Source: Lujinxingiaceae bacterium
Lineage (GTDB): Bacteria; Myxococcota_A; Bradymonadia; Bradymonadales; Bradymonadaceae
Length of the DNA: 64,000 bases
Assembly (NCBI GenBank): GCA_013697635.1
Contig: JACCWM010000122.1
Coordinates: 1-64,000 of the forward strand
Direction of reading: 5' to 3'
The first letter of the stretch is position 1; each line of letters opens with the position of its first letter. The notes below the pieces were generated by a model, which did not search any database, was not told where the DNA came from, and saw nothing but the letters and a program-made list of their open reading frames with translations. Of the stretch, positions 27,955 through 36,182 are shown piece by piece. Position numbers and translations under genes: made by a program.

Positions 27955-29793
27955 ATGGCTGATCAAGCCGCTCAAGAACCGGAGAACGTCGCCCCCAACC
28001 GTGCGGACGTTTTGTATCGCCTGCGCCACTCGACCTCGCATCTGATGGCCGCCGCGCTGCTCGAGATCTTTGCCGACGCGAAGCTCGCCATCGGGCCGCC
28101 GATCAAGGACGGCTTTTACTACGACTTCGAGGTGCCGCGGCCGCTGACGCCGGACGACTTCGAGGCGATCGAGGCGAACATGCGCGCGCTGGTCAAGCAG
28201 AACGTGCAGTTCATCCAGGAGGAGTGGCCCAAGGACAAGGCGCGCGAGTTCTTCAAGGATCAGCCCTACAAGCTCGAGCTCATCGATCGCGTCGACGGCG
28301 AGACGGTGTCGACCTACAAGAGCGGGCCGCTGATCGATCTTTGCGCCGGGCCGCACGTTCGCTACTCCAAGCAGTGCAAGAACTTCAAATTGATGAAGGT
28401 CGCCGGCGCCTATTGGAAAGGCGACGAGAACCAGCCCATGCTCCAGCGCATCTATGGCACCGCTTTTCCCACCAAAGAAGAGCTGGAGAACCACCTGCAC
28501 ATGCTCGAGGAGGCCAAGCGGCGCGACCATCGCAAGCTCGGCCGCGAGCTTGAGCTCTTCGACTTCAACAGGCTCTCGCCGGGTTGCGTCTTCTGGCGAC
28601 CCAAGGGCTGGACCTCATACCGCGAGCTGCAGGCTTATTTTCGTGAGATCGAGGCCGCCCAGGGCTATGAGGAGATCAGCAACCCGCTGATCTACAACAA
28701 GGAGCTCTTCGAGCAGAGCGGCCACTGGGATCACTACAAAGAGCACATGTTCCAGCTCGAGTCCCACGGCCAGGTTTTCTGTCTCAAGCCGATGAATTGC
28801 CCCGACACCATGCTCTACTTTAAGAGCAAGAAGCGCTCTTATCGCGAGCTGCCACTTCGCGTGGCCGAGTTCGGCGTGCTCCACCGAAACGAGCTGCCCG
28901 GCGCGCTCGCTGGCGCCACCCGCGTGCGCCAGATGATGCAAGACGACGCCCACATCTTTGCCACCGAGGAGACTCTGGGCGGCGAGATTGCCAGCCTGCT
29001 GCAGATGGTCGACTCGACCTATGGCATGTTCGACATGGAGTACGACATCGAGCTCTCCACTCGCCCCGACGACTTCATGGGTGAGCGTGCGCTCTGGGAC
29101 GAGGCCGAGATCGCGCTCAAGAAGGCGCTCGAGGACAGCGGCAAGACCTACAAGATCAACGAGGGCGACGGCGCTTTTTACGGCCCCAAGATCGACTTTC
29201 AGGTGCGCGATTGCCTGGGCCGCTCCTGGCAATGCGCCACCATCCAACTCGACTTCCAGCTTCCGCGCCGCTTTGAGCTCACCTACACCGCCAGCGACAA
29301 CTCCGAGAAGACCCCGATCGTCATTCACCGCGCGATCGCCGGCAGCCTGGAGCGCTTCTTTGCCATCCTCGTCGAGCATCTGGCCGGCGTCTTCCCCACC
29401 TGGCTCAGCCCTGTGCAGGCCGTCGTCGTCACGATCACCGACGAACAAAACGACTACGCCTGGCAGGTCGGCGACGCCCTCAAAAAGGCTGGCATCCGCG
29501 TCGAGGTCGACGATCGCAGCGAAAAGATGGGCTTCAAGACCCGCGACGCGATCACCCGCAAGATCCCCTACATCCTTGTCGTCGGCGCCCGCGAGGCCGA
29601 AGAAAGCACGGTGGCCCTTCGCACCTACGCCGACGGCCAGCGTGGCACGCACGCCCTCGAGGTGATCAAGGACGAGATCCTCGACAAGATTCGAAACCGC
29701 ACTCTCGACGTCAAGATCGAGGTCACCAAGCTCGCTGCCGCCACGTCCGACGATGACGAGATCGGCGACGACATGGTCGAGCGCGGCTACTAA
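27955..29793 (+). CDS. thrS: Threonyl-tRNA synthetase lacking the TGS domain
   Basis: 612 residues. It charges tRNA-Thr and edits Ser-tRNA-Thr. The start is ATG 27955, with AAGGAG 8 bases upstream; the ATG at 27937 overlaps that site. The protein begins almost directly with the editing domain (RHSTSHLMAAALLEIF with its HxxxH, then LCAGPH), so the usual 60-residue N-terminal TGS domain is absent. The class II core follows: KPMNCPDTM with the zinc Cys, DDAHIFATEE and IVIHRAIAGS with the two zinc His, then the anticodon-binding domain. PDT replaces the common PGH after NC. The last codon overlaps the convergent gene by four bases. Confidence 0.96.
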   Translation: MADQAAQEPENVAPNRADVLYRLRHSTSHLMAAALLEIFADAKLAIGPPIKDGFYYDFEVPRPLTPDDFEAIEANMRALVKQNVQFIQEEWPKDKAREFFKDQPYKLELIDRVDGETVSTYKSGPLIDLCAGPHVRYSKQCKNFKLMKVAGAYWKGDENQPMLQRIYGTAFPTKEELENHLHMLEEAKRRDHRKLGRELELFDFNRLSPGCVFWRPKGWTSYRELQAYFREIEAAQGYEEISNPLIYNKELFEQSGHWDHYKEHMFQLESHGQVFCLKPMNCPDTMLYFKSKKRSYRELPLRVAEFGVLHRNELPGALAGATRVRQMMQDDAHIFATEETLGGEIASLLQMVDSTYGMFDMEYDIELSTRPDDFMGERALWDEAEIALKKALEDSGKTYKINEGDGAFYGPKIDFQVRDCLGRSWQCATIQLDFQLPRRFELTYTASDNSEKTPIVIHRAIAGSLERFFAILVEHLAGVFPTWLSPVQAVVVTITDEQNDYAWQVGDALKKAGIRVEVDDRSEKMGFKTRDAITRKIPYILVVGAREAEESTVALRTYADGQRGTHALEVIKDEILDKIRNRTLDVKIEVTKLAAATSDDDEIGDDMVERGY

Positions 29794-30494
29794 AAGACCA
29801 CCCCACCGGCGCTTCGCACCACCTCCCCACGCGTGGGGAGGTGCCAGTTAATCAGGCCCACAGCGTCGAGATCGAAGCCGGCGCTGGGGGCGCTGCCGTT
29901 AAACGAGAGGTCGCGGATGCGCACGAAGCGGGCGCGCTCGAGGCCAACGTCGGACAGGTCGAAGACGTCGCCGCCGGTCAGGGCGGTGTCTAGCACCAAC
30001 AACACGTAAGGCTCGTAGACAAGCGTGGGCGACCAGCCGGCACAGCCGGGCCAGCGGCCGGGTTGGGCGGCGTCGGTCTCGCAGGCAAACACGGTCCATG
30101 CCACGCCGTCCTCGCTTACCGACACCTCGCCAAGCTCGGCAAAGACGTCTTGAGGCTCGCCGCGCGGCCAAAAAGCGTTCTCGAAGACGATGAAGTCGGG
30201 CCCGGGGCCGTCGACGATGCTGCGCTCACCAAAGCCCAGGATGATCTCGCCGCCTTTTCCAAGGCTCAAGACATCAAGTGAGGCCGCCCGTACGCCCTTC
30301 CCGCTCGGGGGACCAAGCACGACGTCAGGCAGGCGGTCCTGCCCATAGCCTGCGCCCTCGCCAGGCGAAAAAGAGACAACCTCGCTCGCGTAAGGAAGCG
30401 GCGGCGCCGCCGCGGGGCCCTCGTCGACGACTTCGTCAACGCAGGCTGGCGTGGCGAGGCCCACAACGATGACCATGAGGCCAAGGGCGCGCAT
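29790..30494 (-). CDS. Secreted lipoprotein, second gene of cobalamin-riboswitch operon
   Basis: About 234 residues from ATG 30494 (a GTG three bases earlier is possible). The signal has a lipobox (VVGLATPACVDE). The mature part is beta-rich: VSFSPGEGAGYGQDRLPDVV, GGEIILGFG, then DGPGPDFIVFENAF, a block seen in cell-surface lipoproteins of unknown function. Its start codon shares a base with the previous stop (TGATG), so it is translationally coupled to the 30494..30940 gene and comes under the same cobalamin riboswitch. A role in corrinoid capture or uptake is an inference from regulation only. The 3' end overlaps thrS by four bases. Confidence 0.78.
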   Translation of the reverse strand: MRALGLMVIVVGLATPACVDEVVDEGPAAAPPLPYASEVVSFSPGEGAGYGQDRLPDVVLGPPSGKGVRAASLDVLSLGKGGEIILGFGERSIVDGPGPDFIVFENAFWPRGEPQDVFAELGEVSVSEDGVAWTVFACETDAAQPGRWPGCAGWSPTLVYEPYVLLVLDTALTGGDVFDLSDVGLERARFVRIRDLSFNGSAPSAGFDLDAVGLINWHLPTRGEVVRSAGGVVF

Positions 30495-30940
30495 CACTGG
30501 CGCGTCATCTTGGTCCAGGAGAAGCCGCCGCAGCCGTCTTCGTCGGGGTTGGTCGCGTCGACCTCAGCGTCGCTGCTTTCGGCCAGCTCGGCGCTGTCGA
30601 GCGCAAAGTCGGCCCAGCAATAATAGAAGCTGTCGTTGACCAGTGGAGTCCAGACAAAACGGTTGAACTTGCCCGGGGAGAACTCGGCGTCAGCGTCGTT
30701 TTGGGTCACGGCCCAGCGGGCGGTGTTGTCGAAGGTGACGATGTCGGTCAAGTCCCAGCGCTCGGCGGTGATGATCTCCGTGCCACCAAAGCTCGTCGTC
30801 CAGGTGCCGCTCACCTCGATCATCTCTTTGGCAATATCGTGCGTGCCGTCCTCGCCACAGGCATAACTCATCGCCATCAGGGCGATCAGCAAGCAAAGAA
30901 CGATTGGATTGGGGCGAGTGGGGGATTTTTGCAGACGCAT
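30494..30940 (-). CDS. Small lipoprotein directly behind cobalamin riboswitch
   Basis: 148 residues. ATG 30940 has GAGGAG eight bases upstream; the longer frame back to 31180 is riboswitch leader. A lipobox ends the signal (LLIALMAMSYACGED). The mature domain has GTWTTSFGGTEIITAERWDL, DIVTFDNTARW and a SFYYCW motif with a late D-G-C-G. It is paralogous to the product of 31284..31796, sharing GTW-x-T, ITA-x-RW-x-L-x-DIV-x-F and F-x-YCW. Function is unknown. Regulation by a cobalamin riboswitch makes a B12-related surface role the leading hypothesis. Confidence 0.82.
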   Translation of the reverse strand: MRLQKSPTRPNPIVLCLLIALMAMSYACGEDGTHDIAKEMIEVSGTWTTSFGGTEIITAERWDLTDIVTFDNTARWAVTQNDADAEFSPGKFNRFVWTPLVNDSFYYCWADFALDSAELAESSDAEVDATNPDEDGCGGFSWTKMTRQ

Positions 30941-31021
30941 GTGTCGATCTCCTCTGGTTACGACTCTTGGACCAGGCAGGAGATTTATGGCAGGGAGGGA
31001 GTGGGCAACTCTCGCGAAACG

Positions 31022-31057: not shown

Positions 31058-31096
31058 ACCTCCGACCCGAAGCGATTGGTGTTCCATCCGTGACGA

Positions 31097-31253
31097 GGCA
31101 ATATCCTGGCTCTCGGGTCTTCTTTGCCTGATCCCTTCCCGGTGAATGCAATGCTCACCAGTGGTCTCGATCAGGCTCATCGCCGATTACAGTTGCGGGG
31201 GCAGCGTCGGTGTCTCACCGAACTTCCTGCTTCGTCACGCGGTTGGGATTACC
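31097..31253 (-). ncRNA. Cobalamin riboswitch aptamer
   Basis: Minus-strand RNA of about 157 bases with the conserved landmarks of the cobalamin (B12-box) aptamer in order: CGGTGAGACACCG, GCTGCCCCCGCAACTGTAA, GACCACTGG, CACCGGGAAGG and GAAGACCCGAGAGCCAGGAT. The closing stem is GGTAAT (5') with ATTGCC (3'). It lies 30 bases after the upstream paralogue and 157 bases before the lipoprotein start at 30940. B12 binding normally represses downstream genes. A weak promoter (TTGGAA-16-TAAAAC, 31281..31308) could start the leader. Confidence 0.93.
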
Positions 31254-31283
31254 ACTGTGGGGCGCACGCGTCAAACGCGCGTT

Positions 31284-31796
31284 TTACAGGGCTTCCAACT
31301 TCTTCCAATTTTCGCCAAGGCAGCCGGTCGCCAGGTTGGACTCATCGACCTCTTTATTGCCGGCCTTGACCTGATCGAGGGTGAGGCGGCCAATCTCAGT
31401 CCAGCAGTAGTGGAAACTGCCGTGGCGCGGCTGCGTCCAGACGATCTTGTTGTAGCGGCCCTCGGTGCCCTGATTCGCGCTCTCGGTCGCCGCGGTGTTC
31501 ACCGTGATCACCCAACGCTCGGCATTCTTGAACTCGACGATATCCTCGAGGCCCCAACGCGAAGCCGTGATTGTCTCGGTCGAGTTGTAGTTGGTCTTCC
31601 ACGTCCCAACGATCGCGATGGTGCGCTCGTCGTCCTCGTCCTCGACATCCTCGGTTGTTTTGCCGACATCGTCGCCGCCGGCATTGTTGGAGCGTTTGGG
31701 CTCCTCGTCACCGCAGGCGCCGCTCAGCGCGACGAACGTAACCAGCAAGCAAGCACACAACAAACGAAGGATCATCGGGGAATTTGAAAGCTGCAT
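31284..31796 (-). CDS. Lipoprotein paralogue of the riboswitch-controlled gene
   Basis: 170 residues from ATG 31796, supported by TTGAGGAG upstream. A lipobox ends the signal (LVTFVALSGACGDE). After an acidic linker (GGDDVGKTTEDVEDEDDE) comes the domain shared with the 30494..30940 product: GTWKTNYNSTETITASRWGL, DIVEFKNAERW, then a SFHYCW motif and a final Cys. No riboswitch was seen in its own upstream region. Divergence at many positions suggests an old duplication. Function unknown. Confidence 0.8.
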   Translation of the reverse strand: MQLSNSPMILRLLCACLLVTFVALSGACGDEEPKRSNNAGGDDVGKTTEDVEDEDDERTIAIVGTWKTNYNSTETITASRWGLEDIVEFKNAERWVITVNTAATESANQGTEGRYNKIVWTQPRHGSFHYCWTEIGRLTLDQVKAGNKEVDESNLATGCLGENWKKLEAL

Positions 31797-31913: not shown

Positions 31914-31958
31914 ACGTGCAAATGCAAAACGACGTCAAACAGCCGCGAGGAGGCGACC

Positions 31959-33401
31959 ATGAGCCAGAACTACGAAGACCTGGAGTGCATTGAGCTTGTC
32001 GAGACTTATGAGTCTGATGAGCCCTACGTCGACGATTTTTTGGCCGAGGGCGGCGGCGACACCCTGGAGGTCGCCTTCTTGTGGGCCGGCCACGTGCTCA
32101 AGGTCAACAGCTACGCTCGCCCTCGCACGCTGACCGTGGGCGCAGGCGCGGGCAATGATTTTGTGTGCGAGCACGAAGACCTGCTCCATCCGAGTTTCCC
32201 GCTGCTCACGTATCAAGACGGCGGCTATCAGCTCGTGGTCGTTCCGAAGATGAGCGGCCTGGTTTACATCGACGACGCCGGCTACCATCTCGACGAGCTC
32301 ATTGCGGCCAGCAGCGAGCAGCACCCCGAGATCGCCGGTGCGCGCATGGTGGCGCTCGGGCGCACGACGCGCGCGCGCATCGAGCTTGGCCCGATCAGTG
32401 TGCTGATACGCTTCATCGATCAACCTGCGGTGGTTGCCGCCGGCATGCAGTTCGATCGCACGTCGGTGCCCTACCTGTCAGCGAGCGCGATTGGGCACGT
32501 CTTGTTCGTGTTGCTCGCCATGACGATGCCCGCTGGCGCCAGCTCGTTGAGCCTCGACGGTTTTGAGTCCAACGATCGCTTCGTGCAGCTTTTGGTCGCC
32601 CCGCTGCAAGAGGACCAGCCTGTGGCCGCCGATTGGCTCGAGTCCAACGACGAAAAACACAGCGCCGGACACAAGGGCGACGAGGGTGCAGCCGGCGAGC
32701 GGGACAAAGAGATCACGGACAAGTCACTGGCCATTGAGGGCCCGGCCGACAACGAGCGCATCGAGCTTCGCAAGGACTACGACCGGGCGATCGTCGAGAG
32801 CAGCGGCGCCGTGGCGATCTTCAGAGATAACCAGATGAGCAGCCTCTTTGGCACGAGCGAGAGTTCGGTGGGCAGCGACGCCTTGCACGCGCTGGGCATC
32901 ATGGGCCCCGGCGAGCCGGGCGCCTCCGGCGGCGCCGATGGCCTGGGTATTCGCGGCACCGGGCGCGGCGGCCCGGGCGACTCGGACGTGAGCATCGGCA
33001 TCGCCGACGTTCGCCCCACCGGCAGCGGCCGGCGACCCGGCGGCCCAAAGGCCAATCTTGAGCGCCAAACCCGTGAGCCGACCTTCGTGCCCGGGCCGCC
33101 AGTCTTCGAAGGCTCGCTCGATCGCGAGATCATCCAACGCGTCGTGCGCCAGCATCGCCGCGAGATCACCTACTGCTACGAGAGCGAGCTGCAAAAGGAT
33201 CGCACACTGGCCGGGCGCATCACGGTGAGCTTCGTGGTTTCGCCAAACGGCTCGGTGGTCTCGGCGATGATCGACGACTCCTCGCTCAAATCACCGGCCG
33301 TCGAGCGCTGCCTGACCGAGCGCATTCGCCGCTGGGTGTTCCCCGAGCCCAAGGGCGGCGGCATCGTCAAGGTGCGCTATCCGTTCAATTTCTCGAGCTG
33401 A
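31959..33401 (+). CDS. AgmX/PglI C-terminal domain protein with FHA-like N-terminus
   Basis: 480 residues from ATG 31959 (GAGGAGG upstream). Residues about 60-165 resemble a degenerate FHA fold (LTVGAGAGNDFVCEHEDLL). A hydrophobic helix (SAIGHVLFVLLAMTMPAG) anchors the protein. A long Gly/Asp-rich, probably periplasmic, linker follows. The last 95 residues are an AgmX/PglI-type (TonB C-terminal-like) domain: QRVVRQHRREITYCYESEL, then VSFVVSPNGSVVSAMI and RRWVFPEP. Myxobacterial relatives act in gliding motility or as TonB-like energisers. No exbB/exbD genes are in this window. Confidence 0.85.
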   Translation: MSQNYEDLECIELVETYESDEPYVDDFLAEGGGDTLEVAFLWAGHVLKVNSYARPRTLTVGAGAGNDFVCEHEDLLHPSFPLLTYQDGGYQLVVVPKMSGLVYIDDAGYHLDELIAASSEQHPEIAGARMVALGRTTRARIELGPISVLIRFIDQPAVVAAGMQFDRTSVPYLSASAIGHVLFVLLAMTMPAGASSLSLDGFESNDRFVQLLVAPLQEDQPVAADWLESNDEKHSAGHKGDEGAAGERDKEITDKSLAIEGPADNERIELRKDYDRAIVESSGAVAIFRDNQMSSLFGTSESSVGSDALHALGIMGPGEPGASGGADGLGIRGTGRGGPGDSDVSIGIADVRPTGSGRRPGGPKANLERQTREPTFVPGPPVFEGSLDREIIQRVVRQHRREITYCYESELQKDRTLAGRITVSFVVSPNGSVVSAMIDDSSLKSPAVERCLTERIRRWVFPEPKGGGIVKVRYPFNFSS

Positions 33402-34834: not shown

Positions 34835-34945
34835 GGGCTCGACCTCTCAGCGGTCGACGCACACCCTGTATCTGGTCCGCTGCTCCCTCCCGGGTCTGAC
34901 GGGGTGCCAGGCCAGTAGTCGCGCCGACCGCTCAGGTGTCGAGCC
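34835..34945 (-). ncRNA. ffs: Signal recognition particle RNA, small bacterial (4.5S) type
   Basis: About 111 bases. The Ffh-binding apical domain is recognisable as CAGACCCGGGAGGGAGCAG, matching the conserved CAG-rich asymmetric loop and GNRA-like cap region of 4.5S RNA. The ends pair (GGCTCGAC with GTCGAGCC, and GCGGTCGGC with GTCGACCGC), giving one long hairpin without an Alu domain. A strong terminator follows immediately. It lies 39 bases downstream of tRNA-Ser(GGA) on the same strand. Confidence 0.9.
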
Positions 34946-34984
34946 TTAAGCTTGTTCATAGCAGCTAAAGCTGCCAATTTCTAG

Positions 34985-35071
34985 CGGAGAGAGAGGGATT
35001 CGAACCCTCGATACGAATTAACGTATACACGCTTTCCAAGCGTGCGCCTTCAACCACTCGGCCACCTCTCC
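34985..35071 (-). tRNA. tRNA-Ser (anticodon GGA)
   Basis: 87 bases with a class II long variable arm (TATACG...CGTAT). D-arm GGCCGAGTGGTTGAAGGC, anticodon loop TTGGAAA on a CACGC/GCGTG stem, T-arm GAGGG-TTCGAAT-CCCTC, discriminator G. It reads UCC and UCU. CCA is not encoded. The SRP RNA follows on the same strand. Confidence 0.96.
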
Positions 35072-35108
35072 TAACGCTCGATGACTTGGGACTCTCGTAA
35101 GGATTGAG

Positions 35109-35196
35109 CAGAGGGGGTGGGATTCGAACCCACGTTACCCAGTTAGAGTAAACTTGATTTCGAATCAAGCGCCTTCAACCACTCGGCCACCCCTCC
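35109..35196 (-). tRNA. tRNA-Ser (anticodon CGA)
   Basis: 88 bases, class II. Anticodon loop TTCGAAA on a CTTGA/TCAAG stem, T-arm GTGGG-TTCGAAT-CCCAC, discriminator G. It reads UCG. The acceptor GGAGGGG pairs with CCCCTCT, leaving a G1-U72 wobble at the very end, which is unusual. It starts 20 bases after the tadA stop. Confidence 0.95.
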
Positions 35197-35216
35197 CCAA
35201 AAACGAGAGCCCCATG

Positions 35217-35732
35217 TCAAAGAACGTCATCCTTCGAACACGTCGAAGGATCCTCTTCGCCGCTTCGTTGGGCCTTTTGGGCCTGACGAATCGAGCGAAA
35301 GAAGTCAGTCAAAATCTCACCGCACGCTGTGCCAAGGCATCCTTCGACGACCTCGATGCGGTGATTGAGTCGGGGGTCCTCGCCGATGGCGTACAAGGAG
35401 CGTATCGCGCCGGCCTTGGGGTCGCGTGCACCGTAAACAACTCGGGGAACGCGCGCATTGACCAGCATACCCGCACACATCGGACAGGGTTCCAGCGTGA
35501 CGAAGACGGTACAATCGTCCAACCGCCAGCTACCCAGAACTTCGGCCGCCCGTTTGACGGCGATCAGCTCGGCGTGCGCTGTAGGGTCTTGCCAACTCTC
35601 ACGGCGATTGAAGCCGCTTGCGATGACTTGACCCCGGTGTACGACCACGGCACCTACGGGGACCTCACCCAACGCCTGGGCGTTGCGTGCTTCCTCGAGG
35701 GCCAATGCCATGAAGGCTTTGTCACCTTTCAC
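35217..35732 (-). CDS. tadA: tRNA-specific adenosine deaminase
   Basis: 171 residues from GTG 35732, chosen because AGAGG lies 8 bases upstream; the longer frame starts inside the T-run of the terminator. TadA deaminates A34 of tRNA-Arg(ACG) to inosine so that it reads CGU, CGC and CGA. The zinc/catalytic motifs are HAE in PTAHAELIAVKRA and PCPMC in TLEPCPMCAGM. The substrate tRNA-Arg(ACG) is encoded directly upstream on the same strand, with only a terminator between. Serine tRNAs flank both. Confidence 0.95.
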   Translation of the reverse strand: MKGDKAFMALALEEARNAQALGEVPVGAVVVHRGQVIASGFNRRESWQDPTAHAELIAVKRAAEVLGSWRLDDCTVFVTLEPCPMCAGMLVNARVPRVVYGARDPKAGAIRSLYAIGEDPRLNHRIEVVEGCLGTACGEILTDFFRSIRQAQKAQRSGEEDPSTCSKDDVL

Positions 35733-35760
35733 GGTTACTGCCTCTGCTACGACGTCCAAC

Positions 35761-35789
35761 AAAAAAGAAACGCTCTTTCGAGCGTTTCT
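35761..35789 (-). terminator. Intrinsic terminator between tRNA-Arg(ACG) and tadA
   Basis: On the minus strand AGAAACGCTC-gaaa-GAGCGTTTCT followed by TTTTT: a perfect ten-base stem with a GAAA loop, starting 3 bases after the tRNA. tadA begins about 30 bases further on, so tadA is read either by readthrough or from an unseen promoter. Confidence 0.92.
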
Positions 35790-35791
35790 AG

Positions 35792-35865
35792 TGCACCTGG
35801 AAGGGTTCGAACCTCCAACCTATGGTTCCGTAGACCATTGCTCTATCCAATTGAGCTACAGGTGC
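35792..35865 (-). tRNA. tRNA-Arg (anticodon ACG)
   Basis: 74 bases. Acceptor GCACCTG/CAGGTGC, D-arm TAGCTCAATTGGATAGAGC, anticodon loop CTACGGA on ATGGT/ACCAT, T-arm TGGAGG-TTCGAAC-CCTTCC, discriminator A. A34 is the TadA substrate. CCA is not encoded. A promoter and terminator flank it. Confidence 0.97.
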
Positions 35866-35908
35866 AGCTACCGGCCTCAAAATTCTTGACCGGCAAACTT
35901 CGTGGCGG

Positions 35909-35937
35909 TTAGTACCACCAGATTTTGGGCCTTGCAA
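35909..35937 (-). promoter_or_regulatory. Promoter for tRNA-Arg(ACG)
   Basis: TTGCAA, a 17-base spacer and TACTAA on the minus strand, placing a start near 35902, about 37 bases before the mature tRNA 5' end. Confidence 0.5.
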
Positions 35938-35950
35938 GCCCAAACTTCAG

Positions 35951-36038
35951 CGGAGAGGGAGGGATTCGAACCCTCGATACGCTTTTGACGTATACTCCCT
36001 TAGCAGGGGAGCGCCTTCAGCCTCTCGGCCACCTCTCC
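35951..36038 (-). tRNA. tRNA-Ser (anticodon GCT)
   Basis: 88 bases, class II. Anticodon loop CTGCTAA on a CTCCC/GGGAG stem, long variable arm ATACG-tcaaaag-CGTAT, acceptor GGAGAGG/CCTCTCC, discriminator G. It reads AGC and AGU. It lies between tRNA-Ser(TGA) and tRNA-Arg(ACG). Confidence 0.96.
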
Positions 36039-36099
36039 ATCAACGCTTGACGCGTCGTCCAACAGCCGGCAAGCACTGCCTCCCGCCGCTGTTTCTCAG

Positions 36100-36182
36100 C
36101 GGAGGAGGTGGGATTCGAACCCACGAAGCTTTCGCTTGCCGGTTTTCAAGACCGGTGCCTTCAACCGCTCGGCCACTCCTCC
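36100..36182 (-). tRNA. tRNA-Ser (anticodon TGA)
   Basis: 83 bases, class II. Anticodon loop CTTGAAA on a CCGGT/ACCGG stem, variable arm AAGC-gaaa-GCTT, T-arm GTGGG-TTCGAAT-CCCAC, discriminator G. It reads UCA and, by wobble, UCG. First RNA of the minus-strand cluster, with a promoter at 36229..36256. Confidence 0.96.

Follow-up and report, generated by a model that had tools for sequence, protein, structure and literature searches.

The accessory lipoproteins BtuG, BtuH, BtuJ and BtuK, which capture vitamin B12, have been characterised in Bacteroides of the gut. The systems closest to the locus described here are BtuH2 (BT_1956, PDB 7BIZ) and the H-domain of BtuG1 (BtuGH BT_1490, PDB 8BLW), both from Bacteroides thetaiotaomicron. 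Residues 315–592 of BtuH2 form the part that holds B12 in the crystal, and the ligand is contacted by Gln333, Asn399, His476, Tyr510, Trp511 and Trp577 (PMC8941943). Proteins of the BtuJ/DUF4465 family (IPR027828) have also been reported from Myxococcota and Spirochaetota (PMC13398666).

The window that we analysed, a 64-kb stretch of DNA from a member of the Lujinxingiaceae, contains a cobalamin riboswitch in front of two lipoprotein genes, which we call A and B. The original prediction offered them as either a new surface component of corrinoid capture or a B12-independent substitute function. Judging from fold, fusion, synteny and regulation, we put the probability at roughly 0.8 that these genes form a corrinoid-repressed outer-membrane operon for the capture of vitamin B12.

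The riboswitch and the genes around it

A cmscan search of the whole window returned a single cobalamin riboswitch, a minus-strand match to RF00174 at 31079–31286 that scores 79.9 bits (E 4.6e-18) against a gathering score of 31.5 bits and spans the complete model (positions 1–189). This is the strong minus-strand Infernal match that the original prediction had anticipated, and all four of the aptamer landmarks that it named are present. The extent it gave, 31097–31253, fell about 50 nt short of the true span.

Gene A starts 139 nt after the riboswitch. Folding of the intervening leader predicts a hairpin at 30947–30984 (minus strand) in which the Shine-Dalgarno sequence of gene A, AGGAGAU, pairs with an upstream AUCUCC, making it a candidate expression platform for switching translation off. 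Because this hairpin (minimum free energy −13.5 kcal/mol) is only modestly unusual when compared with shuffled sequences (z = −1.96), it is weak on its own; reading of the leaders of several relatives shows that there, too, the Shine-Dalgarno sequence can pair with an upstream complement, the sequence itself differing. B12-driven OFF-switching of translation is the likeliest mode of control. A scan for sigma-70 promoters found none.

Both downstream genes lie on the minus strand. Gene A (30494–30940) encodes a lipoprotein of 148 aa, predicted to form a small lipocalin-like beta barrel, and gene B (29790–30494) a lipoprotein of about 234 aa with a predicted BtuH-like fold; lipoboxes can be read in each (SYAC and TPAC, respectively). 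Gene B begins either at the ATG at 30494 or at an in-frame GTG at 30497, and since that ATG overlaps the stop codon of A (CAG TGATG), the two genes are translationally coupled, as had been proposed. The proposed inventory was right about A and B but overlooked a third gene: A2, a paralogue of A (39% identity over 109 residues), runs on the minus strand from 31284 to about 31793, its start codon being uncertain. Its stop codon (31284–31286) coincides with the 5' end of the aptamer, and because A2 ends there, it lies outside the cis control of the riboswitch, barring read-through effects.

On its other side, the end of gene B abuts a convergent thrS-like gene. Neither the 64-kb window nor the 35 kb of contig beyond its right edge yielded a gene for BtuB, a propeller protein or PduO; the original prediction, too, had listed no btu gene downstream. 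The divergent neighbour at 31941–33401 (plus strand) encodes a GltG-like/AgmX-PglI C-terminal protein with a TonB_C match; that a TonB-like energy-transducing domain adjoins B12-capture genes may be coincidence. Further along, at 34844–36182 (minus strand), the SRP RNA gene and five tRNA genes are clustered around a tadA-like gene, and in several of the nearer relatives both tadA and thrS remain close to A and B.

Elsewhere, the host genome (6.2 Mb, 99.5% complete) has one more cobalamin riboswitch, its second, on contig C138. It stands upstream of a btuB-propeller-PduO run: the first gene encodes a TonB-dependent receptor, with BtuB among its best specific models although below cut-off, the next a propeller-like lipoprotein, and the last a cobalamin adenosyltransferase of the PduO type. 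The A-B pair is not beside btuB in this genome. The cobalamin-dependent MetH is present in the host, and the corrin-ring enzyme CbiC was not found there by a search that did match in controls. Together, these gene contents fit an organism that uses corrinoids and does not build them, one absent family being no proof of auxotrophy.

Conservation of the pair and its links to BtuB

Within the host family, 15 genomes have the A-B pair. In 14 of them a cobalamin riboswitch immediately precedes it, and in the single exception A begins at a contig end. Flanking genes are common only to the closer relatives, and A and B remain together. Across a sample of 141 genomes of the phylum, B was detected in 92 and a cobalamin riboswitch in at least 131. 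A same-strand riboswitch was located within 3 kb upstream of B in at least 42 of the 92 B-bearing genomes (42 B genes; the count combines the listed riboswitch sites with four sites known from the host-family survey), when about 0.03 would be expected by chance. Beyond the host class there are 72 B loci, and at least 27 of them show the association. For roughly half of the phylum's B genes, the sites listed include no riboswitch within 3 kb, some being hidden by contig ends.

The original prediction suggested looking in relatives for the same genes beside BtuB-like receptors, and both such linkage and fusions of B to propellers were found (L042, L054, L063, L067, L070, L075 and L076). One relative carries a riboswitch-A-B-propeller operon together with BtuB and PduO in one 16-kb stretch (L054), and in another A, B and the propeller gene make up one operon (L053). 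In a different family of the class (L076), a riboswitch, A, B and a propeller gene converge on BtuB, and in candidate division CSSED10-310, which is another phylum, a riboswitch, BtuB, a propeller protein and B follow one another in a single run (L042). A third family includes several genomes in which B is built into the propeller protein as its C-terminal domain, and four of these fusions (L063, L067, L070, L075) lie beside BtuB. The flanks fetched for the propeller-B fusions of one family (L063, L067–L070, L074, L075) contained no cobalamin riboswitch above cut-off.

Several further riboswitches were encountered during this survey. At L064 and L065, one is directly upstream of genes for proteins of 695–757 aa with a C-terminal B domain; the N-terminal part, which has no Pfam family match, is possibly another type of propeller. 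Back-to-back divergent pairs of cobalamin riboswitches, with one member before a B gene, occur at G126:C60:2732-3157 and G160:C18:7410-7870. At L096 (5141-7528, G018:C96), a very strong riboswitch (113.7 bits) precedes a ribonucleotide reductase alpha gene whose product clears the class I NrdE/NrdA model but not the one for NrdJ.

Family A has associations of its own. It adjoins BtuF- and BtuC-like genes at two loci (L087 and L090), is near BtuB at another (L091), and occurs as tandem proteins of two and three domains (L039, L052, L068, L074, L075), one A-A protein being encoded behind its own weak riboswitch (L085). Alignment of the family shows an invariant Cys pair and conserved Trp/aromatic residues. 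The host encodes a third A domain (G000:C36:25620-25937; L094 5563-7950, plus strand), which ends a lipoprotein of 795 aa; the 15 kb examined at this locus contained no cobalamin riboswitch. The A-B genes of L039, from an uncultured proteobacterium, recur in a contig assigned to a Bifidobacterium breve MAG (L040), which looks like binning contamination.

Predicted folds and distant relatives

Pfam returned no family for A, B or A2. In particular, DUF4465 was matched neither by these three proteins at E values up to 1 nor by 33 relatives of B at 0.1. Sequence searches of the PDB with profiles A3, A4 and A5 and with single proteins detected no homologue of A or B, nor did a search of plasmid records. 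The AlphaFold2 model of B, which was built from 9 sequences and is of fair quality (pLDDT 78, pTM 0.81), has as its best PDB match in Foldseek the BtuG1 of the B. thetaiotaomicron BtuB1G1 complex (E 1.5e-4). When the model was ranked by VIA among 988 chains, the top two were BtuH2 (7biz; Z 13.9, rmsd 3.2, 151 residues, 23% identity) and the H-domain of BtuG1 (8blw; Z 12.5, 24% identity), against a Z of 10.8 and 15% identity for the best unrelated fold and identities of 8–16% for nearly all other rows. The match covers residues 315–592 of BtuH2, and the part of BtuG1 that is matched is its H-domain (PMC10404256), so that the propeller-B fusions of the relatives resemble the G-H architecture of BtuG1.

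A near-invariant motif of B, E88-N89-x-F91 in mature numbering, has the same spacing as Asn399-x-Phe401 of BtuH2, a likeness that is no more than suggestive. HMMER profiles A3 and A5 run against PDB sequences left B unmatched to any BtuH, BtuG or BtuJ structure at E values up to 10, and because a sequence-profile match is absent, the case for homology between B and BtuH depends on the fold and the genomic context. From its model, B looks like a distant BtuH-type domain. We rejected membership of the DUF4465/BtuJ family, there being no Pfam match for A, B, A2 or the 33 B relatives; that BtuJ/DUF4465 is not among the fold matches listed for B carries no weight either way.

The model of A is good (pLDDT 87, pTM 0.78) but yields only grey-zone VIA matches to lipocalin-like barrels, the best being Tp0751 with a Z of 8.8, and nothing below E 0.69 in Foldseek.

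Both proteins do have remote homologues in Leptospira, encoded under adjacent locus tags. A matches the NCBIfam LIC13354 family exoprotein model (NF047669) with 30.9 bits (E 2.9e-7), under its curated cut-off of 130 bits, and B matches the LIC_13355 family lipoprotein model (NF033170) with 43.8 bits (E 1.7e-11), under a cut-off of 120 bits; both matches are weak yet significant. Fifteen of 24 A relatives match NF047669 below E 0.01. Because the B domains of two relatives, L070 (C-terminal domain) and L077, score 124.8 and 121.6 bits and so pass the LIC_13355 cut-off of 120, the Leptospira family and the B family constitute one superfamily; a B-like domain that passes this cut-off is also fused to a propeller beside BtuB.

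Host adaptation of L. interrogans raises LIC_13355 and LIC13354 alike, by a factor of about 3.7 (PMC3953431). This species has a third cobalamin riboswitch, rh4854 (RF00174), between LIMLP_17135 and LIMLP_17140, and LIMLP_16720 corresponds to LIC13269 (PMC7567364); interpolating at five LIMLP numbers per gene, rh4854 would fall near LIC13352–13354, at or beside LIC13354–13355. A literature search gave no direct correspondence between LIC13354/LIC13355 and the rh4854 site. If the placement is exact, regulation in Leptospira agrees with a role in B12 capture.

Probable corrinoid capture and its alternatives

A and B very probably belong to a B12-scavenging system. Three lines of evidence support well the proposal that they serve corrinoid capture at the cell surface: the predicted fold of B, the BtuB/BtuG-like linkage and fusions in relatives, and the phylum-wide association with riboswitches. 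When corrinoid is scarce, the aptamer would be unliganded and the ribosome site of gene A open, such that A and, via the TGATG overlap, B would be made and anchored in the outer membrane. Through its predicted BtuH-like domain, B would bind cobamides and deliver them to the products of the other riboswitch-controlled locus, the BtuG-like propeller and BtuB. Import would then proceed by way of TonB and an ABC importer, and PduO would adenosylate the cobamides to make them usable. With ample adenosylcobalamin, the aptamer would bind its ligand and hairpin 30947–30984 would shut the ribosome site.

The role of A is the least certain step of this scheme. A is most likely a second accessory lipoprotein that binds corrinoids or hands them over; there is, nevertheless, a substantial chance that B alone captures corrinoids and that A acts as its structural partner, or as a factor in assembly or in vesicles. 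The analogy is with BtuL of B. thetaiotaomicron, a riboswitch-regulated lipoprotein that stimulates the release of vesicles without binding cobalamin (PMC12751083), and it suits the want of any fold match for A above the grey zone. Weighing against a non-binding A are its tandem domains, its conserved Cys pair and aromatic residues, and the riboswitch of its own in L085; repetition of the domain, in particular, would suit a ligand-binding module.

Two other explanations would detach both proteins from capture. It is improbable that A and B do something else at the cell surface, for example adhere or bind carbohydrates through an F5/8 type C-like fold, and are regulated by B12 as part of a B12-linked switch of lifestyle. 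The fold class of B does include CBM32 and discoidin domains (Z 8–9), and reported ligands of the Leptospira relative LIC_13355 are laminin, plasminogen and endothelial cells, but the protein assayed had been refolded from an insoluble form (PMC11891782), the two best fold matches of B are B12-binding proteins at 23–24% identity against 8–16% for nearly all others, and several lineages, including another phylum, have B in fusions with propellers beside BtuB and in btuB operons. Less probable still is that A and B constitute a B12-independent substitute or bypass made when B12 is lacking, as is metE. The riboswitch would impose the same OFF-with-B12 regulation on such genes, yet the proteins are small surface lipoproteins without any enzyme family, B has a BtuH-like fold, and the constant neighbours are genes for B12 transport and not for B12-dependent enzymes. 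This half of the original prediction thus finds no support, and we reject it on fold and context.

These results place a BtuH-like protein, along with a partner family absent from Pfam, in about two thirds of the sampled genomes of a phylum other than that of Bacteroides, where ties to cobalamin riboswitches, BtuB and BtuG-like propellers recur. Two orphan families, catalogued so far only as unknown Leptospira lipoproteins, gain a directly testable function. Leptospires need vitamin B12. LIC_13355 is treated as a plasminogen- and laminin-binding adhesin, in an account that does not mention a link to B12 (PMC11891782); the present evidence suggests that LIC_13355 may primarily capture the vitamin. 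More tentatively, A and B could represent a second, non-Bacteroidota lineage of surface B12 scavenging, common to Myxococcota-like bacteria, Leptospira and at least one candidate phylum, in which B would be a minimal BtuH-type binder, A a hitherto unrecognised lipocalin-like module for binding corrinoids, often in tandem, and LIC_13355 and LIC13354 a riboswitch-controlled B12-capture pair.

Measured against known systems, the aptamer itself is ordinary, being complete and possessing every canonical element of RF00174; what is unusual is only the genes that it regulates. The riboswitch-regulated surface lipoproteins of the BtuJ/DUF4465 family bind B12 with a jelly-roll fold; A and B are likewise riboswitch-regulated lipoproteins, with no Pfam match to DUF4465. 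The word 'new' in the original prediction needs qualifying: because B looks like a distant BtuH-type domain, its class of function is already known from Bacteroides. Family A is the part of the system without a known counterpart. The predicted fold of B is the same as that of BtuH2 and the BtuG1 H-domain across the whole B12-binding domain, and BtuH and B are alike in being lipoproteins, in their control by a cobalamin riboswitch, in the neighbourhood of BtuB and, in some relatives, in fusion to a propeller. The characteristic setting of BtuH, a lipoprotein gene with btuB/btuG under a cobalamin riboswitch, is seen here through the riboswitch of the window and the linkage in relatives, the btuB of the host being at another locus. 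B differs in that it stands alone, has about 190 residues and no PKD domains where BtuH has about 270, and is partnered by family A in Myxococcota-like genomes, whereas BtuH belongs to the Bacteroidota.
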